Source: Elephas maximus indicus
Lineage: Eukaryota > Chordata > Mammalia > Proboscidea > Elephantidae
Length of the DNA: 64,000 nucleotides
Assembly (NCBI RefSeq): GCF_024166365.1
Contig: NC_064822.1
Location: 103,474,823-103,538,822 of the forward strand
Reading direction: 5' to 3'
Shown here: in pieces, positions 12,527 through 61,401 of the stretch
Position numbering within the stretch: position 1 is the stretch's first letter
Layout of the letters: each line of letters starts with the position of its first letter
Made by a program: the position numbers and the translations under genes
Notes under the pieces: generated by a model
Told to the model about the DNA's origin: nothing
The model's input: the letters and a program-made list of their open reading frames with translations, nothing else
Databases searched by the model: none

Positions 12527-15500
12527 ATGACAGCACTAAACTCATATCTATCCATAATTATGCTTAATGTAAATGGACTAAATGCATCAATAAAGAGACA
12601 CAGAGTGGCAGAATGGATTTAAAAAACACGATCTGTCTTTATGCTGCCTACAGGAGACACACGTTAGACTTAGAGACATAAAAAAACTAAAACTCAAAGC
12701 ATAGGAAAATATTTATCAAGCTAACAACAATCAAAAAAGAGGAGGAGTGGCAATATTGATTTCTGACAATAAGGACTTTAAAGTTAAACCCACCACAAAG
12801 GATAAGGAAGAACACTATATAATGATTAAAGGAACAATATACTAGGAGGATATAACCGTATTAAATATTTATGCACCCAATGACAGGGCTACAAGATACA
12901 TAAAACAAACTCTACCAGCATTGAAAAGTGAGATAGACAGCTCCACAATTACAGTAGGAGACTTCAACACACCACTTTTGGTGATGGACAGAACATCCAG
13001 AAAGAAGCTCAGTAAAGGCACAGAAGATCTAAATGCCACAATCAACCAATTTGACCTCATAGACATATACAGAACTCTCCACCCAACTTCAGCCAAGTAT
13101 ACTTTCTTTTCTAGTGCACTTGGAACATTCTCTAGAATAGACCAAATATTAGGTCATAAAGCAAGACTTAGCAGAATCCAAAACATTGAAATATTACAAA
13201 GCATCTTCTCTGACCATAAGGCCATAAAAGTAGAAATCAATAACAGAAAAAGCAGGGAAAAGAAATCAAACACTTGGAAACTGAACAAGACCCTGCTCAA
13301 AAACGACTGAGTTGTAGATGATATTAAGGATGGAATTAAGAAATTCATAAAATCCAATGGGAATGAAAACACTTCTTATCAGAACCTTTGGGACACAGCT
13401 AAAGCAGTGCTCAGAGGTCAACTTACATCAATAAATGCACACATCCAAAAAGAAGAAAGGGCCAAAATCAAAGAATTATCCCTACAACTTGAACAAATAG
13501 AAAGAGCAACAAAAGAAAGCCTCAGGCACCAGAAGAAAGCAAATAATAAAAATTAGAGGAGAATTAAATGAAGTAGAGAACAGAAACACTGAGTTAAAAA
13601 GAACAAAAGGTGGCTCTTTCAAAAAATTAACACAATTGATAAACCGCTGGCCAAACTGACAAAAGAAAAACAGGGAGAGGAAACAAATAACCCAAATAAG
13701 AATTGAGATGGGCACTATCACAACAGAACCAACTGAAATTAAAAGAATCATATCAGCTTACTATAAAAAAGTGTACTCTAACAAATTTGAAAACCTAGAA
13801 GAAATGGATGCATTTCTAGAAACACACTACCTACCTAAACTAACACAAACAGATGTAGAACAACTAACTAAACCCATAACAAAAGAAGAGATTGAAAAGG
13901 TAATTTAAAAACTCCCAACAACAACAAAAAAGCACTGGCATGGACGGCTTCACTGCAGAGTTCTACCAGACTTTCAGAGAAGAGTTAACAATGCTACTAC
14001 TAAAGGTATTTCAGAGCATACAGAAGGACAGAATACTCCCAAACTCCTTCTATGAAGCCAGCATTCCCTGATACCTAAACCAGGTAAAAGCACCGCAAAA
14101 AAAAAAAAAGAAAAGAAAATTACAGACCTATATCCCTCGTGAACTTAGATGCAAAAATCCTCAACAAAATTCTAGCCAATAGAAGTCAACAACATATCAA
14201 AAAAATAATTAACCATGACCAAGTGGGATTCATACCAGGTATGCAGGGATGGGTCAACATTAGAAAAGAATTAATGTAATCCATCATGTAAATAAAACAA
14301 AAGACAAGAACCACAGGATTTTATCAACTGATGCAGAAGAGGCATTTGACAAAGTTCAACACCCATTCATGATAAAAACTCTCAGCAAAATAGGAATAGA
14401 AGAAAAATTCCTCAACATAAAGCATATTTATACAAAGCCAACAGCCAGCATCATCCTAAATGGGGAGGGTCTGAAAGCATTCCCCTTGAGATTGGGAACC
14501 AGACAAGGATGCCATTTATCACCACTCTTATTCAACATTGTGCTGGAGGTCCTAGCCAGAGCAATTAGGCTAAATAAAGAAATAAAGAGCATCCAGATTG
14601 ATAAGGAAGAAGTAAAAGTATCTCTATCTGCAGATGACATGGTCTTATACACAGAAAACCCTAAAGAATCCTCCAGAAAACTACTGAAACTAATAGAAGA
14701 GTTCAGCAGAGTATTGGGATACAAGATAAACTTACAAAAATCAGTTGGATTCCTCTACACCAACAAAGAAAACATCGAAATGGAAATCAAACCAATACCA
14801 TTTACGGTAACCCACAAGAAGATAAAATACTTAGGAATAAATCTTACCAGAGACATGAAAGACCTATACAAAGAAAACTACAAGACATTACTGCAAGAAA
14901 ACAAGAGACCTACATAAGTAGAAAAACATACCTTGCTCATGGATAGGAAGACTTAACATTATAAAAGTGTCTGTTCTATCAAAAGCCATCTATAGATACA
15001 ATGAAATTCTGATTCAAATTCCAATGACATTTTTTAATGAGATGGAGAAAGAAATCACCAACTTCATATGGAAGGGCAAGAGATCCCAGATAAGTAAACT
15101 ATTACTGAAAAAGAAGAACAAAGTGGGAGGCCTCGCTCTACCTGATTTTAGAACCTATTATACTGCCACAGTAGTCAAAACAGCCTGGTTCTGGTACAAC
15201 AACAGATGCATAGACCAATGGAACAGAATTGAGAAACTAGACATAAATCCATCCACAAATGAGCAGCTGATATTTGACAAAGGCCCCAAGTCTGTTAAAC
15301 GGGGTAAAGACAGTCTTTTTAACAAACGTGCTGGCATAACTGGATATCCATCTGCAAAAAAATGAAACAAGACCCATACCTCACACCTCACACCACGCAC
15401 AAAAACAAACTCAAAATGGATCAAAGACCTAAATATAAAATCTAAAATGATAAAGATCATGGAAGAAAAAATAGGGACAATGTTAGGAGCCCTAATACAT

Positions 15501-16288
15501 GGCATAAATGGTATACAGAACATTACTAACAATGCAGAAGATGAACTAAATAACGGAGCTCCTAAAAATCAAACACCTACGCTCATTCAAAGACTTCACC
15601 AAAAGAGTAAAAAGATTACCTACAGACTAGGAAAAAGTTTTTAGCTATGACATTTCTAATCAGTACCTGATATCTAAAATCTACATGATACTGCAAAAAC
15701 TCTACAAAAAGACAAATAACCCAGTTAAAAAATGGGCTAAATATATGAACAGACACTTCACTAAAGAAGACATTCAGGTAGCTAACACATACATGAGGAA
15801 ATGCTCACGATCATGAGCCATTAGGGAAATGCAAATCAAAACTACAATGAGATTCCATCTCACTCCAACAAGGCCGGCATTAATCCAAAAAAATGCAAAA
15901 TATGAAATGTTGAAAAGGTTGTAGAGAGACTGGAACACTTATACACTGCTGGTGGGAATGTAAAATGGTACAACCACTTTGGAAATCAATTTGGTGCTTC
16001 CTTAAAAAGGTAGAAATAGAACTGCCATATGACCCAGCAATCCCACTCCTTTTGGACTATATCCTAGAGAAATAAGAGCCTTTACTCAGACAGATATATG
16101 CACACCCATGTTCACTGCAGCACTGTTTACAATAGCAAAAAGAAGGAAGCAACAAGGTGCCCATCAATGGATGAATGGATATATAAATTATGGTATATTC
16201 ACAGAATGGAATACTACGCATTGATGAAGAACAATGATGAATCCATGACACATTTCATAATACGGAGAATCTGGAAGGCATTATGCTG
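12527..16288 (+). pseudogene. L1-A ORF2 (endonuclease-reverse transcriptase), broken
   Basis: Starts at ATGACAGCAC like the ORF2 at 61126 on the other strand. The endonuclease part carries VGDFNTPLL and SDHKAIKVEI. The reverse transcriptase part (14369-14917) carries [14 protein letters not shown] and [11 protein letters not shown], where the usual FADD is changed to SADD. The C-terminal part ends in FIIRRIWKALC. Open pieces lie at 12921-13310, 13708-13908, 14369-14917, 14967-15365, 15447-15644 and 16098-16289 in changing frames, so it is inactive. Confidence 0.92.
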
Positions 16289-17362
16289 AGTGAAATTAGT
16301 AAGTTGCAAAAGGACAAATATTTATAAGACCACTACTATAAGAACTTGAAAAAATAGTTTAAACAGGTAAGAAATATTCTTTGATGGTTATAAGAGGGGG
16401 GAGGAAGGGAGGGATGGAGAGGGATTTGCACTAATTAGATAGCAGACAAGAACTATTTTAAGTGAAAGGAAAGACAACACAAAATACAGGTGAGGTCAGC
16501 ACAATTGGACTAAGCCGAAAGCAAAGAAGTTTCCTGAATAAACTGAATGCTTTGAAGGCCCACGTAGCAGGGGTGGGGGTTTGGGGACCATGGCTTCAGG
16601 GGACATCTTAGTCAATTGGCATAATAAAATCTATTAAGATTACATTCTGCATCCCACTTTGCAGAATGGCGTCTGGGGTCTTAAACGCTAGCAAGCGGCC
16701 ATCTAAGATGCATCAGTTGGTCTCAACCCACCTGGATCAAAGGAGAATGAAGAACACCAAAGGCGCAAGGTACGTATGAGCCCAAGAGACAGAAAGGACC
16801 ACATAAACCAGAGACTACATCAGCCTGAGACCAGAAGAACTAGATGGTGCCCGACTACAACCGATGACTACCCTGACAGGAAACACAACAGAGAACCTCT
16901 GAGGAAGCAGAAGAGCAGCGGGATGCAGATCTCAAATTCTCGTAAAAGGACCAGACTTGATGGTCTGACTGAGACTAGAAGGACCCCAGATGTCATGGTC
17001 CCCAGACCTTCCATTAGCCCAAGGCAGGAGCCATTCCCGAAGCCAACTTTTCAGATGAGGATTGGACTGGACTATGGGATAGAAAATGATACTGGTGAAG
17101 AGTGAGCTTCTTGGATCAGGTAGGCACGGGAGACTATGCAAGTTGCTCCTGTCCGGATGGGAGACGAGAGGGGACAGGTGTTTAGAAGCTGGCCGAATGG
17201 ACGTGAAAATAGAGAGTGGAGGGAAGGAGTGTGCTGTCTCATTAGGGGGAGAACAACTAGGAGTATATAGCAAGGTGTATATAAATTTTTTATGAGAGAC
17301 TGACTTGATCTGTAAACTTTCACTTGAAGCACAATAAAAATTAAACACAAACAAAATATTAG

Positions 17363-21623: not shown

Positions 21624-22838
21624 TGGGGAGGGAAGCAGACAGGGAATTCACTAATTAGATGGTAGACAAGAATTATCTTACCTGAAGAGAAGAACAGCAC
21701 ACAGTACACGGGAAGTCAGCACAACTGGACTAAACCAAAAGCTAAGAAGTTTCCTGAACACAACCAAACACTTTGAGGGACAGAGCAGCAGGTGCAAGGG
21801 TCTGGGGAACCATGGTTTCAGGGGACATCTAGGTCAATTGGCATAAGAAAGTTTAAGAAAATGTTCTGGAACCCACTTTGGTGATTGGTGTCTGGGGTCT
21901 TAAAAGCTTTAGCACCCCCAAAGAGCACATCAACCACAGCACATTTCTATGTCATCAAAGAAGCTTTTACTTCATTTACACTCACATTTGCGCTTTAACA
22001 GATACCAGCCTTGCAGGGAGTGCAGTGCTGACTGTGCTGGGCTCGGTAGCCATGAATGGCCTCCCAGGAGCCGCTGTGAGCCGGATGGGGAAGGAGAGAC
22101 TCAGCACACGGTTGCAGGGCTTGATGATTTGCAGAATCCTGAGTGCTCATTTCCACCTCTGCTCCTCACTGTCCTGGGTCTTGATGAACTCCACTTGATG
22201 TGATCAATTTGTCCCAACCCACCTGGAGCAAAGGAGAATGAAGAACACCAAAGACACAAGGAAAATATTAGCCCAAGAGACAAAAGGGCCACATAAACCA
22301 GAGACTCCAACACGTGAGACCAGAAGAACTAGATGGTGCCCGGCTACCATCAATGACCACCCTGGCAGAGAACACAACAGAGAGTCCCCGATGGAACAGG
22401 AGAAAAGTGTGGTACAGAACTCAAATTCACGTAAAAAGACCAGACTTAATGGTCTGACTGAGACTAGAGGAACCCCAGAAATCACGGCCCCCAGACTCTC
22501 TGTTAACCCAGCACTATTCCCAAAGCCAACTCTTCAGACAAAGATTAGGCTGCACTGTAAAAGATAAAATAATACTCGTGAGAAGGGTGCTTCTTAGTTC
22601 AAGTAGATTAAAAAAAAAAAAAAATGAGCACCTCCTGTCTAGTGGCATGATGAGAAGGCAGGAAGGGCTAAGAGCTGGTTGAATGGACAAGGGAAACGGG
22701 GGTAGAAAGGGGGAGTGTGCTGTCATAGAGATTTTAATGAGGGTCACATAACAATATGTGTATAAATTTTTGTGTGAGAAAGTAACTTGAGCTGTAAACT
22801 TTCACCTAAAGCACAATTTAAAAAAAGAAAAAAAAAAT
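21624..22838 (+). mobile_element. L1 LINE 3' end (L1-B), 5'-truncated, with embedded inverted GLUD1 segment
   Basis: Matches the L1-A 3' UTR from ttcactaattagatggtag to ctgtaaactttcacctaaag plus A tail. Normal L1 sequence is interrupted between the block gtctggggtctta (to about 21904) and caacccacctggagcaaagg (from about 22213). There, about 290 bp of reversed GLUD1 retrocopy sequence replaces roughly 20 bp of L1 (the agcaagcggccatctaagat part of L1-A). Confidence 0.92.
21905..22194 (-). pseudogene. GLUD1P-fragment: Inverted fragment of the GLUD1 retrocopy inside L1-B
   Basis: The reverse complement of 24021-24317, nearly base for base. By eye the differences are a 6 nt and a 2 nt deletion and about a dozen substitutions. 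It shares retrocopy-specific changes (for example the disturbed ggctcacagcggctcctggg stretch), so it was copied from the neighbouring retrocopy and not from the parent gene. Open frames on the + strand of this piece are antisense GLUD1 and not a gene. Confidence 0.93.
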
Positions 22839-23649: not shown

Positions 23650-26090
23650 GGCTCAGGCTTAAAAAAGATAGCCTGGCCTTTCCTGCCTCAGTGCCAAGGG
23701 CCTCTGAACGCACTTTTCCCGGGACCCACACGCACCTCTCCCCTGTCGTGCCTTTGCCTCTGCAGCCATGTACCGCTGCCTGGGCAAAGGGCAGCTGCTG
23801 TCTAGGGCCAGGCCTGTTGCCTTGGCCTCTAAAGCGGCAAATTCAGCTGCGCTTCTGGGCCTGACCTGTGGGCAGGCCCCCACATCCAACAGTCAGGGTC
23901 CAGGCCACCTGCCCTGAGACACTACAGCGAGGCTGCTGGGAATTGTGAGGACAGTCCTGACCTTTCCAAGATAGCGGAGGGCTTCTTCGACCATGGCCTC
24001 AACATCATGGAAGACAATAATGGAATTCATCAAGACCCAGGACAGTGAGGAGCAGAAGCGGAAATGAGTGCTCGGGATTCTGTGAATCATCAAGCCCTGC
24101 AACCGTGTGCTGAGTCTCTCCTTCCCCATCCGGCTCACAGCGGCTCCTGGGAGGCCATTCATGGCTACCGAGCCCAGCACAGTCAGCACTGCACTCCCTG
24201 CAAGGCTGGTATCTGTTAAAGCGCAAATGTGTGAGTATAAATGAAGTAAAAGCTTTGGCTGCTTTGATGACATAGAAATGTGCTGTGGTTGATGTGCTCT
24301 TTGGGGGTGCTAAAGCTGGTGTTAAGATCAATCCCAAGAATTATACCCATAATGAATTTGAAAAGATCACAAGGAGGTTCACCATGGAATTAGCAAAGAA
24401 GGGCTTTATTGGTCCTAGCGTTGATGTGCTTGCCCCCAGGTATGGGCACTGGTGAGCGTGAGATGTCCTGGATTGCTGACACCTATGCCAGCACCATAGG
24501 ATACTATGATATTAATTCACATGCCTGTGTTACAGGTAAACCCATCAGTCAGGGTGGTATCCATGGACATATCTCTGCTACTGGCTCTGGTGTTTTCCTT
24601 GGTATTGAAAACTTTATCAGTGAAGCTTCTTACATGAACATTTTAGTGTTGACATCAAGAGTTCAAAATAAAACACTTGTTCAGGGATTTGGTAATATGG
24701 GCCATTATACTATAAGATATTTACGTCATTCTGGTGCTAAATGTGTTGGTGTTAGTGACTCTCACAGGGGCATATGGAATTCAGATGGTATTGATCCAAA
24801 GGAACTGGAGGACTTCAAATTGCAACGTGGATCAGTCATGGGTTTCACCAAGGCAAAACCCTATAAAGGAAGCATCTTGGAAGCTGACTGTGACATACAG
24901 ATTCCTGCCGCCAAGGAGAAGCAGTTGACCAAATTCAGTGCACAGAAAGTCAAAGCCAAGATCATTGCTGAAGGTGCCAATGAACAGACAACGCCAGAAG
25001 TTCATAAGATTTTCCTGGCGAAGAAGATTCTAGTAATCCTTGATCTCTGCTTGAATGCTGGAGGACTGACAGTATCTTACTTTGAGCGGCTGAAGAATAT
25101 AAGTCATGTCAGCTATGGCCATTTGACTTTCAAATATGAAAGGGATTCTACTACCATTTGCTCAGGTCTGCTTAAAAGAGTTTAGAAAGAACATTTGGAA
25201 GCTCAGTGGAACTCTTCCCATTTTACCCACAGCAGGATTCCAAGATAGACTATCAGGTGCATCTGAGAAAGACATCGTGCACTCTGGCTTAGCTTATACC
25301 ATGGAGTATCCTGCTAGGCAAACCATGAGCACAGCCAGGAAGTATAAACTGGGAATGGATGTGAGAATGGCTGCCTACGTCATTGCCATTGAGAAAATTG
25401 TCAGGGTGTACAATGAAGCTGGTTTGACCTTCAAGTAGATAGATCATAGATAACTTCTTCACTACCCTCTTCCTTGTAACTTCAGCAAACCTATGACAAG
25501 TTTACATGTAACCACAAGAATCTCTTTCTCTCCTGACTTACTATATAATGGACACCAGCCATTCTCAACAAGTCAGTTCAAACTACACTTTTAAAAGGAA
25601 TAAAATAAACGTTAGGAGATCATACACAAGCTGATGAGCTTGAAAGTTGAAATTGCCCTTGCCAAAAGGCCATTTAGGTATTTGGCCTTTTAATGAAAAG
25701 TCTGTTCCATCTGGCTATGTTGCTCCATGGCTGTTTCCCAGCATAGCACATCAGTTACCTGCTGTTTGTATTAAGCATTTGTTCTCCAAGAACAGTCACT
25801 TGGTTACATTCTTTTGCTCTGGCCAAGTCTGGAATATGCTGTAACTTTGACACATTTGAAAGTGGGTGTATGACATTTTCAGAAGGTGGAATGTTCTGAA
25901 AGTGAGTTATTGCTAATTTACGTTAGCAAATTTTACAATTTGCAAACAAAAATAAAAGCTGTTTCTCTTTATGCATTTCATTCTTTTAGAATGAAATAAG
26001 TGCATGCTACTATAATAAAATTTCTTTTAATCACTTAGCAAGCTAACCTTGACTCAAGCAGAGAATGCCTATAAACATAAGTTTTAAAAA
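23650..26090 (+). pseudogene. GLUD1P: Processed GLUD1 (glutamate dehydrogenase 1) retrocopy
   Basis: Intronless copy of the mitochondrial glutamate dehydrogenase mRNA. The ATG at 23768 opens a presequence-like start (MYRCLGKGQLLSRARP) that stops at TGA after about 49 codons. Homology then continues in broken frames to the TAG at 25436-25438, a coding span of 1671 nt, close to the 558-codon parent. The best-kept part is 24409-25185, with [38 protein letters not shown], the Rossmann segment [11 protein letters not shown] and [12 protein letters not shown]-like [16 protein letters not shown] 1 nt loss near 25155 shifts to the frame ending [21 protein letters not shown]. The 3' UTR follows, with aataaaagctgtttctc near 25952. 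The parent enzyme deaminates glutamate to 2-oxoglutarate. This copy is non-functional, and is independent of the hominoid GLUD2 retrogene. Confidence 0.95.
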
Positions 26091-31982: not shown

Positions 31983-33309
31983 ATCTACCCCAGTTATTCA
32001 TTGCTGAACTGGGGAAATCACTACAGGATGTGTTTGGGGACCTAATGGACCTACTGTGAGACATGCATGGGCTAAAACTCAACCTGACCTCCAAGTACTT
32101 CCACTCTGGCTGGTGGGCCACAGTGACATTTTGGGTCTCCTGGAATTAAGTGTCAGTTCAGAGCCAGCATACAGTAATCACCAGAAATCTGATTATTTCC
32201 TTTCTCCCAATGAACAGTCACTCTCAGAAAAGGCTGTGGATCCCTTTGGGGAAGGCTGCAAGAAAGATTAACAGTAGAAGTTTTTGGCAGAGTCCTGGAG
32301 TCCTTCCCCGAGGAGACTCAGCCTCCCCTTCATTCAAGGGGTTGAGGGTCTTTAAACTTGCTCAAGTCTGGGAATCGATTGAGGGCCCATGACTGTCTAT
32401 TTTGGCAATTCGAGTTAGACTGCAGTTCACTTGACCTAGAATTTATCTACTTGTACAGATCAAGTAAATAGTAGATTTCCTGTCCACTCCTAGGAACACC
32501 ATGACTAAGTACCCAATGCCTTAAATCCATATGAGTAAGACTCTTCTGATTACTGCTTTGATACTGCTGTCTGTTATGGAGCCACACCTACCTTTTCTTT
32601 GTAGATTGATTGCTGACACTTGGCCCCTACCACCACAGGGTCCAATCGGTCCAATTGTAGCTAAGTGTCTTAATTCAGTTAGGGCAGTTCCCACTGTCAA
32701 ATCTGACTTACATAAAATAGCAATCACAGCAGTCTTCAAGGATGCGGGGGCTTCCCTCACAAATTTGTTGCTCACAGTTGCGGTAAAAGGTATGTCCTCT
32801 GGGCACCCTATGTGTGGGTCTGTGGGTCTAACCTGATAAATCCACTCTAGCATGCCAGTTACCCTAAGCTTTTGGATACCTTCCTCTACAATATACCAAG
32901 GCAGGCCTGGTACTTCAGCTTGATTTAATGTAGGCCACCGTGTAATCCATGCTTCAGCGACTCAACCAAATAGCCTATTAGATCCTTTCCTAACTTCTCC
33001 AGCTGAAACATTCAAGAATCTGTATGAGGGAAAGAGAAAGGGAGGGAGCAAAAAAGGAATGAGGAATGAAGAAAGAAGGAATGTGAGAAGGAAGGAGGGA
33101 AAACCTTGAGAGGTGGGAAAGACAGACAATTGTATCACAGAATTATTGCCTAACCCGTCTCTAACCTCCAATGTCCAGAAATATCTCTATAAGGATCTCA
33201 CCTGTACCACTCCTGATTTTCAGGCGAGGCACACATTCTCCCAGCTGAGCTAGGCATCCCTTCATAATCTTATCACATCTTTAATAAAAATGTTTCACTC
33301 TCCCATTCC
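31983..33309 (-). pseudogene. ERV-L-type gag/protease region, degraded
   Basis: Lies upstream of the RT on the - strand. The longest frame (32521-32853) contains KEAPASL-like REAPASLKTAVIAILC and GTALTELRHLATIG, which I associate with ERV-L gag, though less certainly than the RT. A purine-rich run on the + strand (about 33020-33110) is the antisense of a pyrimidine tract. No intact frame spans the region. The full-length RTE has inserted at 33310. Confidence 0.6.
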
Positions 33310-33506
33310 ACCCCCACGTGTCTGTCAGTTTGTCGTACTGTGGGGGCTTCTGTGTTGCGGTGATGCTGGAAGCTATGCCACCGGTGTTCAGATACCAGCA
33401 GGGTCACCCATGGAGGACAGGTTTCAGTTGAGCTTCCAGACTAAGACAGACTAGGAAGAAGGACCCGGCAGTCTACTTCTGAAAAGCATTAGCCAGTGAA
33501 AACCTT

Positions 33507-34873
33507 ATGAATAGCAGCGGGACATTGTCTGATATAGTACTGGAAGATGAGCCCCCCAGGTTGGAAGGCACTCAAAAGATGACTGGGGAAGAGCTGTCTC
33601 CTCAAAGTAGAGTCGACCTTAATGACGTGGATGGAGTAAAGCTTTCGGGGCCTTCATTTGCTGATGTGGTGCGACTCAAAATGAGAAGAAACAGCTGCAA
33701 ACATCCATTAATAATCAGAACCTGGAATGTATGAAGTATGAATCTAGGAAAATTGGAAATCATCAAAAATGAAATGGAACACGTAAAGATCGATATGCTA
33801 GGCATTAGTGAGCTGAAATGAACTGGTATTGGCCATTTTGAATCAGACAACCATATAGTCTACTATGCTGGGAATGAAAACTTGAAGAGGAATGGTGTTC
33901 CATTCATCGTCAAAAAGAACGTTTCAAGATCTATCCTGAAGTACAACGCTGTCAGTGATAAGACAATGTCCATACGCCTACAAGGAAGACCAGTTAATAC
34001 TACTATTATTCAAATTTACGCACCAACCACTAGGGCCAAAGATGAAGAATTAGAAGACTTTTATCAGTTGTTGCAGTCTGAAATTGATCAAACATGAATC
34101 AAGATGCATTGATAATTATTGGCGATTGGAATGCAGAAGTTGGAAACAAAGAAGGATCAGTAGTTGGAAAATATGGCCTTGGTGACAGAAACAATGCCGG
34201 AGATCGAATGATAGAATTTTGCAAGACCAATGACTTCTTCAATGCAAATACCTTCTTTCACCAACATGAACGGTGACTATACACATGGACCTTGCCAGAT
34301 GGAACACACAGAAATCAAATTGACTACATCTGTGGAAAGAGACAATGGAAAAGCTCAATATCATCTGTCAGAACAAGGCCAGGGGCCGACTGTGGAACAG
34401 ACCATCAATTGCTCATATGCAAGTTCAAGCTGAAACTGAAGAAAATCAGAGCAAGTCCACAAGAGCCAAAATATGACTTTGAGTATATCCCACCTGAATT
34501 TAGAGACCATCTCAAGAATAGATTTGACACATTGAACACTAGTGACCGAAGACCAGACGAGTTGTGGAATGACATCATCCATGAAGAAAGCAAGAGGTCA
34601 CTGAAAAGACAGGAAAGAAAGAAAAGACCAAGGTGGATGTCAGAGGAGACTCTGAAACTTTCTCTTGTGCGTCGAGCAGCTAAAGCAAAAGGAAGAATTC
34701 ATGATGTAAAAGAACTGAACAGAAGATCTCAAAGGGCCTCTCGAGAAGACAAAATAAAGTATTATAATGACATGTGCAAAGAGCTGGAGATGGAAAACCA
34801 AAAGGGAAGAACACGCTCGGCTTTTCTCAAGCTGAAAGAACTGAAGAAAAAATCCAAGCGTCGAGTTGCAATA
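33507..34873 (+). pseudogene. RTE-A endonuclease half of the polyprotein, broken
   Basis: Apurinic-type endonuclease domain in several frames: RTWNV then a TGA near 33733; ILGISELK-like MLGISELK followed by TGA (a tryptophan codon in intact copies); IIGDWNAEVGNKEG (34094-34276); RNQIDYICGKRQW and RPGADCGTDHQLLICKFKLK (34292-34894). The catalytic Asp-Asn (GDWN) and C-terminal Asp-His (TDHQ) pairs are still visible. At least two stops and two frame changes inactivate it. Confidence 0.88.
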
Positions 34874-34874
34874 G

Positions 34875-34993
34875 CTCAACTTTCTGTGAGATAGATTCCA
34901 TTATACAATCACTATCTTCCTACAAGGGTACAATCTAGTAAGATGAGATTTAGATATGCTCATTGTAAAAAAGTTTTCCATCTCTTGCTCTAG
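34875..34993. other. Transferred flank: ERV-L-side DNA inside RTE-A
   Basis: About 119 bp that is not RTE sequence and equals the reverse complement of about 41436-41554, the host flank, target-site copy (cattgtaaaaaagt) and inverted 5' tip of the separate RTE at 39693-41446. The left junction shares atag with RTE-A, a likely microhomology. Confidence 0.93.
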
Positions 34994-35073
34994 AAAACCA
35001 AAAGGGAAGAACATGCTCAGCACTTCTCAAGCTGAAAGAACTGAGGAAAAAATTCAAGCCTCGAGTTGCATTA

Positions 35074-36345
35074 GTGAAGGATTCCATGGGGAAAATATTA
35101 AATGACACAGGAAGCATCAAAAGAAAATGGAAGGAACACACAGAGTCATTACACCAAAAAGAATTAGTCAATATTCAACCATTTCAAGAGGTGGCATACG
35201 ATCAGGAACCGATGGTACTGAAGGAAGAAGTCCAAGCTGCTCTGAAGGCACTGGCAAAAAACAAGGCTCCAGGAATTGATGGAATATCAATTGAGATGTT
35301 TCAACAAACAGATGCATCACTGGAGGTGCTCACTGGTCTATGCCAAGAAATATGGAAGACAGCTTCCTGGCCAACTGACTGGAAGAGATCCATATTTCTG
35401 CCTATTCCCAAGAAAGGTGATCCAACCGAATGTGGAAATTATAGAACAATATCACTAATATCACACGCAAGCAAAATTCTGCTGAAGATCATCCAAAAAC
35501 GGCTACAGCAGTATATCGACAGGGAACTGACAAAAATTCAGGCTGGTTTCAGAAGAGGACGTGGAACCAGGGATATCATTGCTGATGTCAGGTGGATCCT
35601 GGCTGAAAGCAGAGAATACCAGAAGGATGTTTACCTGTGTTTTACTGATTATGCAAAGGCATTTGACTGTGTGGATCATAACAAACTACGGATAACACCG
35701 CGAAGAATGGGAATTCCAGAACACTCAATTGTGCTCATGAGGAACCTTTACATAGGTCAAGATGCAGTTGTTTGGACAGAACAAGGGGACACTGATTGGT
35801 TTAAAGTCAGGAAAGGTGTGAGTCAGGGCTGTATTCTTTCACCATACCTGTTTAATCTGTATGCTGAACAAATTATACGAGAAGCTGGACTTTACGAAGA
35901 AGAACGGAGCATCAGGATTGGAGGAAGACTCATTAACAACCTGCGTTATGCAGATGACACAACCTTGCTTACTGAAAGTGAAAAGGACTTGAAGCACTTA
36001 CTAATGAAAATCAAAGGCCACAGCCTTCAGTATGGATTACACCTCAACATGAAGAAAACAAAAATCCTCACAACTGGACCAATGAGCAACGTCATGATAA
36101 ATGGAGAAAAGATTGAAGTTGTCAAGGATTTCATTTTACTTGGATCCACAATCAACAGCCATGGAAGCAGCAGTCAAGAAATCAAAAGACGCATCGCATC
36201 GGGCAAATCTGCTGCAAAGAACCTCTTCAAAGCATTGAAGAGCAAAGATGTCACCCTGAAGACTAAGGTGTGCCTGACCCAAGCCATGGTATTTTCAATT
36301 GCATCATATACATGTGAAAGCTGGACAAGGAATAAGGAAGGCTGA
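35074..36345 (+). pseudogene. RTE-A reverse transcriptase, long open segment (423 codons)
   Basis: Open from MKDSMGKILND through the RT domain: NKAPGIDGISIEMFQQ at about 67-82, the palm motif FTDYAKAFDCVDH (catalytic Asp) at about 190, KGVSQGCILSPYLFN at about 249-263, LRYADDTTLL (catalytic YADD) at about 289-298, then KKTKILTTGP and GSTINSHGS. A TGA after RNKEG ends it. The C-terminal domain continues at 36367-36750 in another frame (IPWTAKRTN, YFGHVVRK). The serine in GVSQG is shared only with the RTE at 39693; other copies here have GVRQG. All RT catalytic residues are present, but the endonuclease half is dead, so the element is not autonomous. Confidence 0.9.
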
Positions 36346-37372
36346 AGAAAAGTTGACGCCTTTGAATTGTGGTGTTGGTTAAGAATATCGAATATACCGT
36401 GGACTGCCAAAAGAACGAACAAATCTGTCTTAGAAGAAGTACAACCAGAAAGCTCCTTAGAAGCAAGGATGGTGAGACTGCGCCTTACATACTTTGGACA
36501 TGTTGTCAGGAAGTATGAGTCCCCGGAGAAGGACATCATGCTTGGCAGAGTACAGGGTCAGCAGAAAAGAGGAAGACCCTCAAGGAGGTGGATTGACACA
36601 GTGGCTGCAACAATGAGCTCAAGCATAACAACGATTGTAAGAATGGCACGGGACTGGGCAGTGTTTCCTTCTGTTGTGCATAGGGTCGCTGAGTCGGAAC
36701 CGACTCGACGGCACCTAACAACAACAACAACAACAACATCCCATTCCTAATAATTTACTGCTCCATAGGCTTTAAGGAGTCCTTTTGATGCAACGGCCTT
36801 GTTAAAATATGTTCTTTGGTTCAATAAGATGCAGGTTATGGGTTCAAATTGGCATAAAATGCCTATTTCCAAGGCCCAAGGAGAAATGTGCCGATTTTTG
36901 TTGAAATCCTTTTGAATCCTCCAGAAAACATAGCAGTGACCCATCTGTCAGCTTTGCATCAGACTTTGTTCTTTAGGGATTCTCCCCAATGTCAATTTCA
37001 GACTCTTTTAATATTCAGGACAGTCTCCTGCCACATTCATGGCTTTGGTGGGTGACAGTGGAATATGTTGTTGTAACACTCAGTGTTGCGTTGCTTGGAC
37101 ACTACCATGCCTGCCCATCTTACGCATCCAAGTGGCTACCTCTAGAGGGCAGACCAAGGCATCCATCTTGGCATTCTAGTTCTTCTCTGAGCCAGTAATT
37201 TGTCTCTTTTGGTGGGCATCCACATGATCAACTTTTTTTTCCTGAATTGCCATAGGCCTTCCACAATTGCACTTTCCACATCACAGCAGTCTTTAATTGT
37301 CCATTCATTAAGCATTCATAAGCCAGACCATATGGCAATGCCATTGGCTGTGGCCTAGGAATCCGCGAATAT

Positions 37373-37552
37373 CAAAAACAAACAAACAAAAAAACCCGTT
37401 GCCGTTGAGTCGATTCTGACTCATAGCGACCCTATAAGACAGAGTAGAACTGCCTCATAGAGTTTCCAAGGAGCGCCTGGTGGATTTGAACTGCGAACTG
37501 CCACCCTTTTGGTTAGCAACTGCAGCTCTTAACCGCTATGCCACCAGTGTTT
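37373..37552 (-). repeat. AfroSINE nested in ERV-L pol
   Basis: caaaaacaaacaaacaaaaa then acccgttgccgttgagtcg at left; head complement gccaccagtgtttc at right. Interrupts the RNase H segment. Confidence 0.93.
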
Positions 37553-37929
37553 CTGTGAGTGTTCCAGACATCTTTAATATAGTATTTTATATCACTTAGA
37601 ACTTTGCCTGAAGAGAAAAATGAAGTTCTTTTTGTATTGTTATGTACACTGCTTTCAGTTCAGCCTATCGGGCGGATTTAACTTTGCCTTTTTCAACTAG
37701 GATTTTACTGTATGGTGGAAAAAAAGCAGCAGACTTCCACTTAAAATCTACAATACAGAAACTCCGATTGGTGAGGTGAATAGCCTGTTACACTTCAGTG
37801 GAAAGACAGTCATAAGGTTCAAACTATTCAACAACAGGAGAGGGTTGGTTGTTCCTTAGGGTGTTCTGTCATTAATCCTAGAGTTGGAAAGAGGCTACCT
37901 GCTCATAGATATGATGCACCCACTTCCAT

Positions 37930-38013
37930 TCCCATTGCTGTTGAGACGATTCCAACTCATAGCAACCCTATAGAACAGAGTAGAACTGCCCATTAGGGTT
38001 TCCAAGGCAGTAA
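37930..38013 (-). repeat. AfroSINE, 3' half, split by L1-D
   Basis: cccattgctgttgagacgat through agggtttccaaggcagtaa. Continues at 38823 after the L1 insertion. Confidence 0.92.
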
Positions 38014-38822
38014 TCCGTTTTTTTTTTTTTTTTTAAATTGTATTTTAGATGCAAGTTTACAGAACAAACTGGCTTCTCATTAAACAATTAGTACACACAC
38101 TGTTTTGTGACATTGGTTGCCAACACCACAACATGTCAACACTCTCCCTTTCTTGACTTTGGGTCTCCTCTTACCAGCTATCCTGTCCCCTTCTGCCTTC
38201 TCGCCCTTGTGCCTGGGCTGGTGTGCCCATTTAGTCTTGTTTTGTTTTATGGGTCTGTCTAATCTTTGGCTGAAGGGCAAACCTCAGGAGTGACTTTATT
38301 ACTGAGCTAAAAGGGTGTTGGGGGGCCATATTCTCAGGGTTTCTCCAGTCTCTGCCAGACCAGTAAGTCTGGTCCTTTTTTTTTTTTTTCTTTGGTGAGT
38401 TAGAATTTTGTTTTACATTTTTCTCCAGCTCTGTCTGGGACCCTCTTTTGTGATCCCTCTCAGGGCAGTTAGTGGTGGTAGCTGGGCGCCATCTAGTAGT
38501 GCTGGACTCAGTCTGGTAGAGGCTGTATTACTTGTGGTTCATTAGTCATTTGGACTAATCTTTCCCTTGTGTCTTTGATTTTCTCCGTTCTCCCTTGCTC
38601 CAGATGTAGTGAGACTAGTGGAGCATCTTAGATGGCCCTTTACAAGCTTTTAAGACCCCAGATGCTATTCATCAAAGAAGAATGTAGAACATTTTCTTTA
38701 TAAATTATGTTATGCCAGTTGAGCTAGGTATTCCCTAGGACCATGGTCCCCACAGCTCTCAGTACAGTAATATGGTGCCTCTGGGAGTTTGGATGTGTCT
38801 CTGGAGCTTCCATAACCTTGCC
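38014..38822 (-). mobile_element. L1 LINE 3' end (L1-D), inserted inside an AfroSINE
   Basis: Poly-T followed by the antisense L1 3' end (gatgcaagtttacagaacaa), 3' UTR only. It is flanked by tccaaggcagtaa (38001-38013) and tccaaggctgtaa (38823-38835), the duplicated SINE target, one mismatch. Confidence 0.94.
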
Positions 38823-38946
38823 TCCAAGGCTGTAACCATTATGGAGGCAGACTGCCACATCTTTCTCCTGAGGAGTGGCTGGTGGGTTTTAGCCATCGAC
38901 CTTTCAGTTTGCAGGAGAGGGCTTAACCACTGTGCCACCAGGGATC
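38823..38946 (-). repeat. AfroSINE, 5' half, split by L1-D
   Basis: aaggctgtaaccattatgga, cagactgccacatctttctc (long-form block) to gtgccaccagggatcc. Completes the SINE begun at 37930. Confidence 0.92.
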
Positions 38947-39692
38947 CTGCACCCACTCCACGTTAGCATATTCCTGAATTTAACATTTACACTTTATCAA
39001 AGAACTTTGTTGTACAGCTCCTTATTTGAATGCCTTTCTGACATTACTCATAATAAGATACATATCTTGGTAGAAAGATGTCCTTCAGCCATATGAGCTT
39101 TTTCCACCAGAGCTCAAGAGCATGCTAGTAAGTGTGTCTTGGATGGGTTGTACGTAGTCAAGCATGAGGGAGTTTTGCAATTCAAAATCCCAGGAGCTGC
39201 CATTGGGTGGCAGAATTAGACTTTTGCCAAGAACTCCAGTCTGCCTCGTTTTAGTAATAGGCACATCTAAAATCATTGGTCCATTAGGATTATATAGTCT
39301 CAGAGTACAGTTCATGCTATTACTCCTGGCATATATCTGAAAAGTTGCCTTTGTTCAAGATCCCATCCAAATTTAGTTCTTTTTTTCTAGGAACTGTACA
39401 TATTGGGGACAACAGGATGCCCAAATGCATTTACCAGAATCTATATAGCTCCAAAAGACTTTGTACCTTTTTATTAGTAGTACCCAGAAGGGATAGTAAT
39501 TTCTTTGTGAAATGTCCCTAGAGACCTCAATCTGGGATATTCCCAGCTATTTGACTGATTGCCCTTGGTCCTGAATCAGTCATAGGTGACTACCTCTGTG
39601 CGCTACAATTTTCAAGTGTTCTTGGCTTTCTCTTCCAAAGAGGAAATTATCATGATATCTTCAGTGTAATTAGTCAATTTACTTTTTACAAT

Positions 39693-41446
39693 GTTGTTGT
39701 TGCTGTTAGGTGCCGTCGAGTCGGTTCCGACACATAGCGACTCTATGTACAACAGAACGAAACACTGCCTGGTCCTGCGCCATCCTCAAAATCGTTGTTA
39801 TGCTTGAGCTCATTGTTGCAGCCACTGTGTCAATCCACCTCCTTGAGGGTCTTCCTCTTTTCTGCTGACCCTGTACTCTGCCAAGCATGATGTCCTTCTC
39901 CAGGGACTCATCCCTCCTGACAACATGTCCAAAGTATGTAAGGCGCAGTCTCACCATCCTTGCTTCTAAGGAGCATTTTGGCTGCACTTCTACCAAGACA
40001 GACTTGTTCGTTCTTTTGGCAGTCCATTGTATATTCAATATTGTTCACCAACACCACAATTCAAAGGTGTCAACTCTTCTTTGGTCTTCCTTATTCCTTG
40101 TCCAGGTTTCACATGCATATGATGTGATTGAAAGTACCATGGCTTGGGTCAGGCACACCTTAGTCTTCAGGGTGACATCTTTGCTCTTCAATGCTTTGAA
40201 GAGGTTCTTTGCAGCAGATTTGCCCGATGCGATGCGTCTTTTGATTTCTTGACTGCTGCTTCCATGGCTGTTGATTGTGGATCCAAGTAAAATGAAATCC
40301 TTGACAACTTCAATCTTTTCTCCACTTATCATGACGTTGCTCATTGGTCCAGTTGTGAGGATTTTTGTTTTCTTCATGTTGAGGTGCAATCCATACGGAG
40401 GCTGTGGCCTTTGATTTTCATTAGTAAGTGCTTCAAGTCCTCTTCACTTTCAGTAAGCAGGGTTGTGTCATCTGCATAACGCAGGTTGTTAATGAGTCTT
40501 CCTCCAATCCTGATGCCCCGTTCTTCTTCATAAAGTCCAGCTTCTCGTATAATTTGTTCAGCATACAGATTAAACAGGTATGGTGAAAGAATACAGCCCT
40601 GACTCACACCTTTCCTGACTTTAAACCAATCAGTGTCCCCTTGTTCTGTCCAAACAACTGCCTCTTGACCTATGTAAAGGTTCCTCATGAGCACAATTGA
40701 GTGTTCTGGAATTCCCATTCTTCGCGGTGTTATCCATAGGTTGTTATGATCCACACGGTCAAATGCCTTTGCATAATCAATAAAACACAGGTAAACATCC
40801 TTCTGGTATTCTCTGCTTTCAGCCAGGATCCACCTGACATCAGCAATGATATCCCTGGTTCCACGTCCTCTTCTGAAACCAGCCTGAATTTTTGTCAGTT
40901 CCCTGTCGATATACTGCTGTAGCCGTTTTTGGATGATCTTCAGCAGAATTTTGCTTGCGTGTGATATTAGTGATATTGTTCTATAATTTCCACATTCGGT
41001 TGGATCACCTTTCTTGGGAATAGGCAGAAATATGGATCTCTTCCAGTCAGTTGGCCAGGAAGCTGTCTTCCATATTTCTTGGCATAGACCAGTGAGCACC
41101 TCCAGTGATGCATCTGTTTGTTGAAACATCTCAATTGATATTCCATCAATTCCTGGAGCCTTGTTTTTTGCCAGTGCCTTCAGAGCAGCTTGGACTTCTT
41201 CCTTCAGTACCATCGGTTCCTGATCGTATGCCACCTCTTGAAATGGTTGAATATCGACTAATTCTTTTTGGTGTAATGACTCTGTGTGTTCCTTCCATTT
41301 TCTTTTGATGCTTCCTGTGTCATTTAATATTTTCCCCATGGAATCCTTCACTAATGCAACTCGAGGCTTGAATTTTTTCCTCAGTTCTTTCAGCTTGAGA
41401 AGTGCTGAGCATGTTCTTCCCTTTTGGTTTTCTAGAGCAAGAGATG
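39693..41446 (-). mobile_element. RTE-clade LINE (RTE-C), 5'-truncated
   Basis: The 3' tail (ttgttgttgctgttaggtgc) is at left. Target-site copies are actttttacaatg (39680-39692) and acttttttacaatg (about 41448-41461). The - strand has a 325-codon open frame 41351-40374 with NKAPGIDGISIEMFQQ, FIDYAKAFDRVDH, KGVSQGCILSP and YADDTT, then a frame change to 40389-40045 and 40038-39706. Its extreme 5' end (about 18 nt, agagcaagagatgg) is in reverse orientation to the rest. It is nearly identical to RTE-A over 34994 to about 36280, then more divergent. Confidence 0.95.
40374..41351 (-). pseudogene. RTE-C reverse transcriptase, open segment (325 codons)
   Basis: Same start (MKDSMGKILND) and RT order as in RTE-A. 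By eye about eight residues differ over 310 shared positions. The frame is lost near 40380 at KGHSL where a base is missing; the C-terminal domain lies at 40389-40045 and 40038-39706. Truncated at the 5' end, so it has no endonuclease. Confidence 0.9.
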
Positions 41447-42214
41447 GAAAACTTTTTTACAATGAGCATATCTAAATCTCATCTTACTAGATTGTACCCT
41501 TGTAGGAAGATAGTGATTGTATAATGGAATCTATCTCACAGAAAGTTGAGCTATGCTTGAACTTCTTTCCATGAACGGGATACCAAAGCCAGGTCACCTT
41601 TAGCAGTCACTGTTAACCTACTGAACTCTTAAAATGTTTTCCTCACATCTGGCATAGCAAAGACTATTGAGAGGGAAATTTTATTTAAAATTCAACTGTC
41701 AGCCTTTAAGAGCTATGCAATTTTTTTCATAAACCATGCAGGATTATACAGTTTTCTTAATGAGGGCTGAGATTACCACTGTCCTCTTGGATTTGGGTAC
41801 TGCTTCGTAATTACTATTGAGGAAGGTGTAGGCAATGCTAATGGATTCCATTTAGTACATAATTAGAACCCTTCAAAGGGTGAACTTACCCAGCATTTGG
41901 CTACAAGCTGGTAATGGCAAGGCCCTCAACTCATGACTCACCTCTTTTCCGTTTATACATTGGTGTCAATGCGATACCACCACTGGATATCTCTCACTTT
42001 CTCAGTTCTGTATCTGTACTTTTACTAAACTCTTGATACTATTTGCCACAGAATCAGCATACCATTCCAAGGTTTACTTTTAGTCCCTTAATATTGCCTT
42101 CTTAAATTTCCTGCACATATTGTAAACATTGTACACAAAATCTCTAGGGAAATTAATATGTTTTCAGTGTGAAACGCATGGAGATTATGATGTTCCTAAT
42201 TTGGGGATGACAGA
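41447..42214 (-). other. Flank of RTE-C, probably ERV-L internal sequence, unassigned
   Basis: The first 110 bp (to 41554) is the stretch copied into RTE-A. Beyond that, no open frame survives; the position upstream of the pol remnant suggests decayed gag or RT palm of the same provirus, but no motif proves it. Confidence 0.4.
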
Positions 42215-56287: not shown

Positions 56288-57227
56288 TGCTCTTAAGCTT
56301 TTTTTTTTTTTAATTAACTTTTATTAAGCTTCAAGTGAACGTTTACAAATCCAATCAGTCTGTCACATATAAGTTTACATACATCTTACTCCCTACTCCC
56401 ACTTGCTCTCCCCCTATTGAGTCAGCCCTTTCAGTCTCTCCTTTCGTGACAATTTTGCCAGCTTCCCTCTCTCTCTATCTTCCCATCCCCCCTCCAGACA
56501 AGAGTTGCCAACACACTCTCAAGTGTCCACGTGATTTAATTAGCTCACTCTTCATCAGCATCTCTCTCCCCCCCGCTGACCAGTCCCTTTCATGTCTGAT
56601 GAGTTGTCTTCGGGGATGGTTTCTGTCCTGTGCCAACAGAAGGTCTGGGGAGCATTGCCTTCGGGATTCCTCTAGTCTCAGTCAGACCATTAGGTATGGT
56701 CTTTTTATGAGAATTTGGGGTCTGGATCCCACTGATCTCCTGCTCCCTCAGGGGTTCTCTGTTGTGCTCCCTGTCAGGGCGGTCATCGATTGTGGCCGGG
56801 CACAAACTAGTTTTTCTGGTCTCAGGATGATGTAGGTCTCTGGTTCATGTGGCCCTTTCTGTCTCTTGGGCTCTTAGTTGTCGTGTGACCTTGGTGTTCT
56901 TCATTTTCTTTTGCTCCAGGTGGGTTGAGACCAATTGATGCATCTTAGATGGCCGCTTGTCAGCATTTAAGACCCCAGATGCCACATTTCAAAGTGGGAT
57001 GCAGAATGTTTTCATAATAGAATTATTTTGCCAATTGACTTAGAAGTCCCCTCAAACCATGGTCCCCAGACCCCCACCCCTGCTCCGCTGACCTTTGAAG
57101 CATTCATTTTATCCCAGAAACTTCTTTGCTTTTGGTCCAGTCCAATTGAGCTGATCTTCCATGTATTGAGTGTTGTCTTTCCCTTCACCCAAAGCAGTTC
57201 TTATCTACTGATTAATCCATAAAAAAC

Positions 57228-57253
57228 CCTCTCCCTCCCTCCCTCCCTCCCTG
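57228..57253 (+). repeat. (CCCT)n microsatellite in the L1-F 3' UTR
   Basis: Repeated ccct units; on the L1 strand a purine (aggg)n tract, as in the G-rich 3' UTR tracts of many L1s. Confidence 0.88.
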
Positions 57254-57307
57254 CTTCGTAACCACAAAAGTATGTGTTCTTCTCAGTTTTTACTATTTCT
57301 CAAGATC

Positions 57308-60300
57308 TTATAATAGTGGTCTTACACAATATTTGTCCTTTTGCCTCTGACTGATTTCGCTCAGCATAATGCCTTCCAGGTTTTTCCATGTTATGAAATG
57401 TTTCACAGATTCGTCACTGTTCTTTATCGATGCGTAGTATTCCATTGTGTGAATATACCACAATTTATTTACCCATTCATCCGTTGACGGACACCTTGGT
57501 TGCTTCCAGCTTTTTGCTATTGTAAATAGAGCTGCGATAAACGTGGGTGTGCATATCTCTGTTTGTGTAAAGGCTCTTGTATCTCTAGGGTATATTCCGA
57601 GGAGTGGGATTTCTGGGTTGTATGGTAGTTCTATTTCTAACTGTTTAAGATAACGCCAGATAGATTTCCAAAGTGGTTGTACCATTTTACATTCCCACCA
57701 GCAGTGTATAAGAGTTCCAATCTCTCCGCAGCCTCTCCAACATTTATTATTTTGTGTTTTTTGGATTAATGCCAGCCTTGTTGGAGTGAGATGGAATCTC
57801 ATCGTAGTTTTAATTTGCATTTCTCTAATGGCTAATGATCGAGAGCATTTTCTCATGTATCTGTTAGCTGCCTGAATATCTTCTTTAGTGAAATGTGTGT
57901 TCATATCCTTTGCCCACTTCTTGATTGGGTTGTTTGTCTTTTTGTGGTTGAGTTTTGACAGAATCACGTAGATTTTAGAGATCAGGCGCTGGTCTGAGAT
58001 GTCATAGCTGAAAATTCTTTCCCAGTCTGTAGGTGGTCTTTTTACTCTTTTGGTGAAGTCTTTAGATGAGCATAGGTGTTTGATTTTTAGGAGCTCCGAG
58101 TTATCTGGTTTCTCTTCATCATTTTTGGTAATGTTTTGTATTCTGTTTATGCCTTGTATTAGAGCTCCTAGGTTGTCCCTATTTTTTCTTCCATGATCTT
58201 TATCGTTTTAGTCTTTATGTTTAGGTCTTTGATCCACTTGGAGTTAGTTTTTGTGCATGGTGTGAGGTATGGGTCCTGTTTCATTCTTTTGCAAATGGAT
58301 ATCCAGTTATGCCAGCAGCATTTGTTAAAAAGACTATCTTTTCCCCAACTAACTGACACTGGTCCTTTGTCAAATATCAGCTGCTCATACGTGGATGGAT
58401 TTATATCTGGGTTCTCAATTCTATTCCATTGGTCTATGTGCCTGTTGTTGTACCAGTCCCAGGCTGTTTTGACTACTGTGGCTGTATAATAGGTTCTGAA
58501 ATCAGGTAGATTGAGGCCTCCCACTTTCTTCTTCTTTTTCGGTAATGCTTTGCTTATCTGGGGCTTCTTTCCCTTCCATATGAAATTGGTGATTTGTTTC
58601 TCTATTCCCTTAAAACAGGACATTGGAATTTGGATCGGAAGTGCGTTATATGTATAGATGGCTTTTGGTAGAATAGACATTTTTACTATGTTAAGTCTTC
58701 CTATCCATGAGCAAGGTATGTTTTTCCACTTAAGTATGTCCTTTTGAATTTCTTGTAGTAGAGCTTTGTAGTTTTCTTTGTATAGGTCTTTTACATCCTT
58801 GGTAAGATTTATTCCTAAGTATCTTATCTTCTTGGGGGCTACTGTGAATGGTATTGATTTGGTTATTTCCTCTTCGGTGTTCTTTTTGTTGATGTAGAGG
58901 AATCCAAGTGATTTTTGTATGTTTATTTTATAACCTGAGACTCTGCCAAACTCTTCTATTAGTTTCAGTAGTTTTCTGGAGGATTCCTTAGGGTTTTCTG
59001 TGTATAAGATCATGTCATCTGCAAATAGTGATAACTTTACTTCCTCCTTGCCAATCCGGATACCCTTCATTTCTTTGTCTAGCCTAATTGCCCTGGCTAG
59101 GACTTCAAGCACGATGTTGAATAAGAGTGGTGATAAAGGGCATCCTTGTCTGGTTCCCGTTCTCAAGGGAAATGCTTTCAGGTTCTCTCCATTTAGAGTG
59201 ATATTGGCTTTTGGCTTTGCATAGATGCCCTTTATTATGTTGAGGAATTTTCCTTCAATTCCTATTTTGGTAAGAGTTTTTGTCATAAATGGGTGTTGGA
59301 CTTTGTCAAATGCTTTTTCTGCATCAATTGATAAGATCATGTGGTTTTTATCTTTTGTTTTATTTATGTGATGGCTTACATTAATGTTTTTTCTGATATT
59401 AAACCAGCCTTGCATAAAAAAACTGGTATAAATCCCACTTGATCATGGTGAATTATTTTTTTGATGTGTTGTTGGATTCTATTGGCTAGAATTTTGTTGA
59501 GGATTTTTGCATCTATGTTCATGAGGGATATAGGTCTATAATTTTCTTTTTTTGTAATGTCTTTACCTGGTTTTGGTATCAGGGAGATGGTGGCTTCATA
59601 GAATGAGTTGGGTAGTGTTCCGTCATTTTCTATGCTTTGAAGTACCTTCAGTAGTAGTGGTGTTAACTCCTCTCTGAACGTTTGGTAGAACTCTGCAGTG
59701 AAGCCGTCCGGGCCAGGGTTTTTTTTATTGGAAGTTTTTTGATTACTGTTTCAATCTCTTTTTTTGTTATGGGCCTATTTAGTTGTTCTACTTCTGAATG
59801 TGTTAGTTTAGGTAGGTAGTGTTTTTCCAAGAATTCATCCATTTCTTCTAGGTTTTCAAATTTGTTAGAGTACAATTTTTCGTAGTAATCTGAAATGATT
59901 CTTTTAATTTCATTTGGTTCTGTTGTGATGTGGTCCTTCTCGTTTCTTATTCAGGTTATTTGTTTCCTTTCCTGTATTTCTTTAGTCAGTCTAGCCAATG
60001 GTTTATCAATTTTGTTAATTTTTTCAAAGAACCAGCTTTTGGCTTTGTTAATTCTTTCGATTGTTTTTCTGTTCTCTAATTCATTTAGTTCAGCTCGAAT
60101 TTTTATTATTTGTTTTCTTCTGGTGCCTGATGGGTTCTTTTGTTGCTCACTTTCTATTTGTTCAAGTTGTAGGGACAGTTCTCTGATTCTGGCTCTTTCT
60201 TCTTTTTGTATGTGTGCATTTATCGATATAAATTGGCCTCTGAGCACTGCTTTTGCTGTGTCCCAGAGGTTTTGATAGGAAGTATTTTCATTCTCGTTGC

Positions 60301-61126: not shown

Positions 61127-61401
61127 TTTGATGCCTTTTCATGTGTGTTGTTGGCCATTTCATTTTTCCACATACTTTTTTGTGCTGAGACGTTTTTCTT
61201 AGTAAATTGTGAGATCCTCATTTTCATAGTGCTTGACTTTATGTTAGTTGAGTCGTTATGTTTTTCTTGGCTTTTATCTTGAGTTATGGAGTTGTTATAC
61301 CTCTTTGTGGTTACCTTATTATTTACCCCTATTTTTCTAAGTAAAAACCTAACTTGTAACGTTCTATATCGCCTTGTATCACTCTCCATCTGGCAGTTCA
61401 A
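61123..61401 (-). other. Short open frame (92 codons) in the L1-F inter-ORF spacer
   Basis: A basic, low-complexity open frame whose TGA overlaps the ORF2 start codon as ATGA. The matching frame in L1-A closes about 60 nt upstream of ORF2, so conservation is not supported. It may be a chance frame or a reinitiation device. Confidence 0.25.

Follow-up and report, generated by a model that had tools for sequence, protein, structure and literature searches.

The stretch analysed here, called the window below, comprises 64,000 bp of the Elephas maximus indicus genome (assembly GCF_024166365.1, contig NC_064822.1, positions 103,474,823 to 103,538,822 of the forward strand). All coordinates are positions in this window. 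It contains two long interspersed nuclear elements (LINEs) in inverted orientation, RTE-A and RTE-C. RTE-A is putatively of the RTE family, the name used by the first-pass annotation of the window. RTE-A is interrupted by a block matching the 5' junction and host flank of RTE-C, and the sequence to the right of the block encodes a reverse transcriptase (34993–36291; PF00078, E 1e-36). The features of the locus, together with the uninterrupted relative RTE-D, are as follows.

33310–36738, plus strand: RTE-A, the interrupted recipient LINE, with an RVT_1 domain in 34993–36291
33301–33309 and 36739–36747: target-site copies of RTE-A, both TCCCATTCC
34793–34874, plus strand: first copy of an 82-bp RTE stretch, in RTE-A's own version and with the ATAG junction at its end
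34871–34874, plus strand: ATAG, common to the left end of RTE-A and the flank of RTE-C; a non-homologous join
34875–34992, plus strand: captured block, consisting of host flank, target-site copy and inverted 5' tip of RTE-C
34993–35644, plus strand: copied RTE stretch with a single difference from RTE-C (at 35170), opening with the second copy of 34793–34874
35645–36101, plus strand: mixed stretch with 13 differences from RTE-C, in which rare changes of RTE-C persist
36102–36291, plus strand: copied stretch with 0 differences from RTE-C; right edge of the main tract at about 36234–36292
36292–36738, plus strand: RTE-A's own 3' end, as a whole not copied from RTE-C
39692–41432, minus strand: RTE-C, the 5'-truncated donor, inverted relative to RTE-A
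41433–41450, minus strand: folded-back 5' tip of RTE-C, 18 bases; by eye, 14 of 16 bases equal inverted RTE-A sequence at 34781–34796
41451–41464, minus strand: 5' target-site copy of RTE-C; its partner at 39681–39693 is one T shorter
41465–41554, minus strand: host flank of RTE-C copied into RTE-A; its last four minus-strand bases are ATAG
10450–12270, minus strand: RTE-D, an uninterrupted relative with normal sequence across the junction

RTE-A and RTE-C each possess a target-site duplication of their own, as the first-pass annotation stated. Both copies at RTE-A read TCCCATTCC, and the copies at RTE-C (41451–41464 and 39681–39693) differ by one T. The 18-base fold-back of RTE-C consists of inverted RTE sequence of the type that lies just upstream in other copies. 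Such a tip resembles the 5' inversions known in LINEs.

The captured block is an exact copy. Positions 34871–34992 agree with the reverse complement of 41433–41554 at all 122 bases, and beyond them the agreement stays perfect as far as 35169. The block divides into the host flank of RTE-C (34875–34960), its target-site copy (34961–34974), and its 18-base inverted 5' tip (34975–34992). The first-pass annotation had recognized all three parts but gave a length of 119 bp; the block is 118 bp long. Immediately after it, the RTE stretch 34793–34874 appears again at 34993–35074, as had been noted, this time in RTE-C's version, which is 90% identical to the first copy. When the block is used as a query against the whole genome (3.40 Gb, 64 contigs), only two places are found, RTE-A and RTE-C, although a miss in such a search is no proof of absence. 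We therefore reject the explanation that the block is a common repeat. Within the same limits, it occurs in no RTE copies elsewhere, an occurrence that had been named beforehand as speaking against capture. The host DNA of RTE-C beyond the copied part gives one full-length match (itself) and one partial match elsewhere at 69% identity. Within the limits of the genome search, the block thus appears to belong to RTE-C's own insertion site. A search of a plasmid collection gave no match.

The left junction can be read by comparing three sequences. RTE-D has GTTGCAATAG followed by TGAAGG, RTE-A has GTTGCAATAG followed by CTCAAC, and the flank of RTE-C has AAGCATAG followed by CTCAAC. Therefore, the bases shared at the junction are ATAG, in agreement with the first-pass annotation. 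The two sequences are joined at ATAG without an added base. When these two sequences are joined at random, 2.2% of the joins show at least four bases of microhomology.

To the right of the junction, RTE-A and RTE-C are nearly identical up to position 36291 and diverge beyond it. They differ at 14 of 1421 positions in 34871–36291 and at 38 of 429 positions in 36292–36720 (Fisher p 1.3e-14). The first-pass annotation had placed the drop near 36280, and it had named uniform identity over the shared length as an outcome contrary to its proposal; such uniformity is not observed. The identity is 98.9% in 34993–36291 and 91.2% in 36292–36720. For comparison we used 28 relatives, the best matches to RTE-A's tract, a choice that is biased towards the tract and works against RTE-A and RTE-C appearing unusually close. 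No pair among these 28 other copies (378 pairs) exceeds 95.4% in 34993–36291, and chance similarity is rejected on this ground. Membership of a shared RTE subfamily is rejected as the cause as well, since the similarity ends at about 36291. The longest run with at most one difference is 657 columns for RTE-A and RTE-C and 213 for the next of 435 pairs. Of the rare changes, defined as those present in at most 2 of the 28 copies, RTE-A and RTE-C share 31 in the tract and do not share 11; to its right, the corresponding counts are 4 and 25 (p 6.5e-7). The unusual motif GVSQG that had been reported as common to both elements is read around 35821, where the underlying A is found in only 1 of the 28 relatives.

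Genome-wide, the close relationship holds for the tract as a whole and not for the right part as a whole. With 35075–36291 of RTE-A as the query, RTE-C matches at 99% and the next 38 copies at 93–94% (best 40 of 19384 candidates, RTE-A itself included). With 36292–36720 as the query, RTE-C is 37th with a match of 91%, and 35 other copies rank above it at 91–93% (best 40 of 6421 candidates, RTE-A itself included). Segment by segment, none of the other copies is as close to RTE-A as RTE-C is in 34993–35644 (0 of 47), 35645–35894 (0 of 49), 35895–36101 (0 of 53, narrowly), and 36102–36291 (0 of 59), and the same holds for 36525–36636 (0 of 60). Outside the tract, 39 of 60 are as close in 36292–36524 and 52 of 59 in 36637–36720.

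The direction of transfer follows from the block. It holds the target-site copy and the tip of RTE-C, and the partner target-site copy is still present at the other side of RTE-C. Therefore, RTE-C is the donor. Both elements keep their target-site pairs (that of RTE-C with the one-T difference), indicating that the flanks were not exchanged and that the outcome was a non-crossover. A crossover or an inversion through the repeats is rejected for the same reason.

The tract and the rest of RTE-A also differ in age, which we express as ratios only. For the left part of RTE-A (33700–34874), no relative above 94% is found among the best 40 of 13399 candidates, and for the right part none above 93% among the best 40 of 6421 candidates, whereas RTE-C matches the tract at 99%. 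Therefore, the left and right parts are old. Changes that RTE-A does not share with the compared copies number 28 of 1375 sites in the left part, 3 of 1299 in the tract, and 6 of 429 in the right part. They are thus about nine times rarer in the tract than on the left (p 5e-6) and about six times rarer than on the right (p 0.009). The tract-to-flank ratio of such own changes is 0.12 for RTE-A and 0.49–1.06 for 20 other copies, namely those of the 28 relatives that cover all three segments, the other 8 being dropped. These counts carry a bias, because the source of the tract (RTE-C) is among the compared copies and the sources of RTE-A's other parts perhaps are not. When RTE-C is removed, the unshared changes of the tract rise from 3 to 19 of 1299, because RTE-C's own load now sits in RTE-A. 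With RTE-A ignored, RTE-C itself has 20 private changes at 1298 tract sites, and other copies have 15–24. The own-change count therefore favours later copying with this reservation; the search for relatives of the left and right parts, an independent line of evidence, agrees with it. Judged from these comparisons, the tract is younger than the insertion of RTE-A.

Sequence comparison shows that the 5' flank, the 5' junction, and the first 1.3 kb of RTE sequence of RTE-C were copied into RTE-A after both insertions, and that RTE-C was left in place. The mosaic is probably explained by non-crossover gene conversion with a non-canonical termination. A double-strand break or a broken fork would have arisen inside RTE-A near 34874–35644. 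The right break end, consisting of RTE sequence, would have invaded the inverted RTE-C by homology and been extended leftward along it. Synthesis would then have overrun the 5' end of RTE-C and continued for about 90 bp into the host flank, and the freed strand, lacking homology there, would have been joined to the left end of RTE-A at ATAG by microhomology end joining. In this scheme 34871–35644 would be new synthesis and, at a further remove, 35645–36291 may be either heteroduplex that was corrected in part or the remnant of an earlier conversion. The tract has one homologous and diffuse edge near 36234–36292 and one non-homologous edge with four shared bases. Such a pair of edges, together with the retained target-site pairs, is the product expected of break-end invasion, overrun, and microhomology joining.

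The differences within the tract are distributed unevenly: 1 of 774 positions in 34871–35644, 13 of 457 in 35645–36101, and 0 of 190 in 36102–36291. One change point is supported (p 0.004), and weighting the sites by how variable they are does not alter this. The rare changes of RTE-C run through the mixed stretch 35645–36101, indicating that this stretch was copied at least in part. The first-pass annotation had proposed a template-switch or conversion tract of about 1.4 kb between the inverted repeats. The genome-wide comparisons bear out such a tract, but its right side is patchy and not one even copy. The patchiness of 35645–36291 may reflect a single event with partly corrected heteroduplex on the invading side, or two conversions of which the later replaced part of the earlier; the differing sites do not discriminate between the two. 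That 36102–36291 has no differences slightly favours patches. To the right of the main tract, RTE-A and RTE-C are the closest of 435 pairs in 36525–36636, and RTE-C is nearer to RTE-A than are 60 of 60 other copies. By length of exact run they are third of 435, with two other pairs having longer runs. This segment is possibly a small converted patch.

Several points weigh against gene conversion in a single event as the explanation. The ATAG microhomology alone is weak and suggestive only. The uneven differences inside the tract make more than one event possible. In the 100-column windows at 35888 and 35938, 194 and 193 of the 435 pairs are at least as close as RTE-A and RTE-C, and with 35888–36101 as the query RTE-C ranks 4th, RTE-A included, with two other copies slightly higher (best 40 of 3057 candidates). 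The right part resembles RTE-C closely in one place, as 36525–36636 (112 bp) has 0 differences amid a divergence of about 9%. The break and the enzymes are part of the proposed pathway only, and a replication-based switch yields an identical product.

It is possible, although we put it forward tentatively, that two events are superimposed: first a plain conversion between RTE sequences that extended to 36291, and more recently another that covered 34871–35644. Either may have brought the flank. The contrast between 1 of 774 and 13 of 457 differences (p 0.004) and the persistence of rare shared changes through the mixed stretch are in line with such a history. An evenly ageing older tract, however, explains poorly the lack of differences in 36102–36291, and a single event followed by patchy correction of mismatches would be enough. 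For the flank-carrying event, two events are compatible with conversion ending non-canonically, so that the confidence placed in the two readings overlaps.

Switching of templates during replication, processes of which are named microhomology-mediated break-induced replication (MMBIR) and fork stalling and template switching (FoSTeS), is a less likely source of the mosaic, although its product would be the same. The nascent strand of RTE-A would jump at ATAG to the flank of RTE-C, copy inward, and return by homology near 36291, leaving the same microhomology edge and the same homologous edge. PMC5104497 reports template switching beside end joining. The patchiness near the homologous edge is, albeit weakly, more in keeping with heteroduplex than with a clean return jump, and nothing positive separates replication switching from break repair.

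An assembly artefact, in which RTE-C reads were misplaced inside RTE-A, is very unlikely. The leftmost 774 bp, with only one difference, is what such misplacement might give. The copies nevertheless differ at 14 positions, of which 7 are departures from the majority by RTE-A alone and 7 by RTE-C alone. Moreover, the mosaic has an exact four-base join with the target-site copies in place, and the genome is assembled into 64 contigs for 3.40 Gb.

The first-pass annotation held that retrotransposition alone cannot place host flank inside another element. This is too strong, as a read-through transcript and template jumps could do so in principle; the retrotransposition route is unlikely because the remainder of RTE-A is older than the tract, not because it is impossible. 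We reject as highly improbable a chimera formed at the RNA level at the birth of RTE-A, in which the reverse transcriptase, by jumping between templates, linked a read-through transcript of RTE-C with further RTE RNAs: although LINE reverse transcriptases make double template jumps, according to PMC2104539, and the target-site duplication of RTE-A is ordinary, RTE-A's own changes are depleted in the tract (with the bias noted above), a recent insertion predicts near-identical relatives of the other parts, which are not seen among the best 40 scored for each, and the 6.5-kb distance from RTE-A to RTE-C would be a coincidence.

A second capture lies in the window. Positions 21905–22193 (289 bp) are an inverted 94% copy of 24021–24317, 2.1 kb away, and interrupt a presumably L1-like element related to 16407–17357. 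The genome search finds only these two places, and AGCTT appears, by eye, to be shared at the left breakpoint. This capture is a direct fit to the repair-mediated duplications already published, which suggests that such events are nothing exceptional in this region. Beside its donor, at about 24020–25200, lies a degraded sequence resembling glutamate dehydrogenase, probably a retropseudogene; it has stops and frame changes, and one piece free of stops contains PF00208. The window also contains long, similar elements in inverted orientation at 9226–17356 and 56302–62609 (82.6% across 5.1 kb, 77% across 1.1 kb), presumably L1, one of which is interrupted by RTE-D. At 62938–63406 there is an overlapping direct repeat about 168 bp apart and 76% identical.

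Repeats that have junctions and target-site copies of their own serve as natural reporters, in which donor, recipient, direction, relative age, entry, and exit are readable. We tentatively suggest, while holding it doubtful, that the locus records one germline event in full: a second end at 34874, about 0.77 kb of new synthesis (34871–35644), at least 0.6 kb of patchy heteroduplex on the invading side (35645–36291, perhaps to 36636), and an exit by microhomology where homology is lacking. In that case, homology-primed capture of host flank would arise regularly wherever LINEs lie close together in inverted orientation, and a genome-wide reading of these fossils could measure the ways in which germline recombination terminates after template overrun. 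The rank of the nearest relative and the load of own changes, each inside versus outside a tract, are applicable to the inverted LINE pairs of a genome. Dating of LINEs by divergence misleads where part of a copy has been overwritten.

Ectopic (interlocus) gene conversion is a unidirectional transfer between dispersed homologous copies in which the donor is kept. The transfer described here is likewise one-way, from RTE-C to RTE-A, with the donor retained, and shows an identity tract with an edge, a donor direction, a non-crossover outcome, and a tract younger than its recipient. Unlike ordinary ectopic conversion, which stays within the shared homology, it includes non-homologous host flank. 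In the open-access literature on repair and conversion and on elephant-lineage RTEs, we saw no natural conversion between inverted LINEs that carries donor flank, although the coverage was limited and this is no evidence of absence.

The chimeras made by LINE template jumps, as presented in PMC2104539, resemble RTE-A in being LINE-flanked composites with a target-site duplication. They form from RNAs at insertion, whereas the tract in RTE-A looks younger than the insertion. The parts of RTE-A do not look inserted at one time, with a tract-to-flank ratio of 0.12 against 0.49–1.06 in other copies (subject to the source bias) and no near-identical source of the other parts.

Repair-mediated duplications are closer. 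PMC2671141 describes 824 probable human cases with donors within 5 kb, captured into interrupted transposable elements. As in those cases, a transposable element is interrupted here by 50 bp or more of DNA that has a single further copy elsewhere on its chromosome, with microhomology at a breakpoint. The donor lies 6562 bp away, centre to centre, beyond the ad hoc cut-off of 5 kb for the proximal group in that source. Furthermore, one edge is a homologous conversion tract rather than a junction, indicating entry by long homology.

Conversion that overruns homology is described from reporter cells in PMC5104497, where, in mouse embryonic stem cells, 9 of 9 cloned joins of non-canonical termination have microhomology or added bases. 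Those products, as set out there, combine homologous entry, copying past homology, and joining of the second end by microhomology or added bases, and RTE-A resembles them in each respect. Two features of non-canonical termination of homologous recombination are found here, as 118 bp of RTE-C junction and flank without homology to the second end and as the join at ATAG. The reported system uses an induced break and a sister-chromatid reporter, whereas the present case is a fossil left naturally in the germline, in which the ectopic donor is inverted and lies 6.5 kb away and the tract spans about 1.4 kb. The repair outcome is a known one that can be read here with unusual clarity, making the locus useful as a natural reporter and not a new kind of system.

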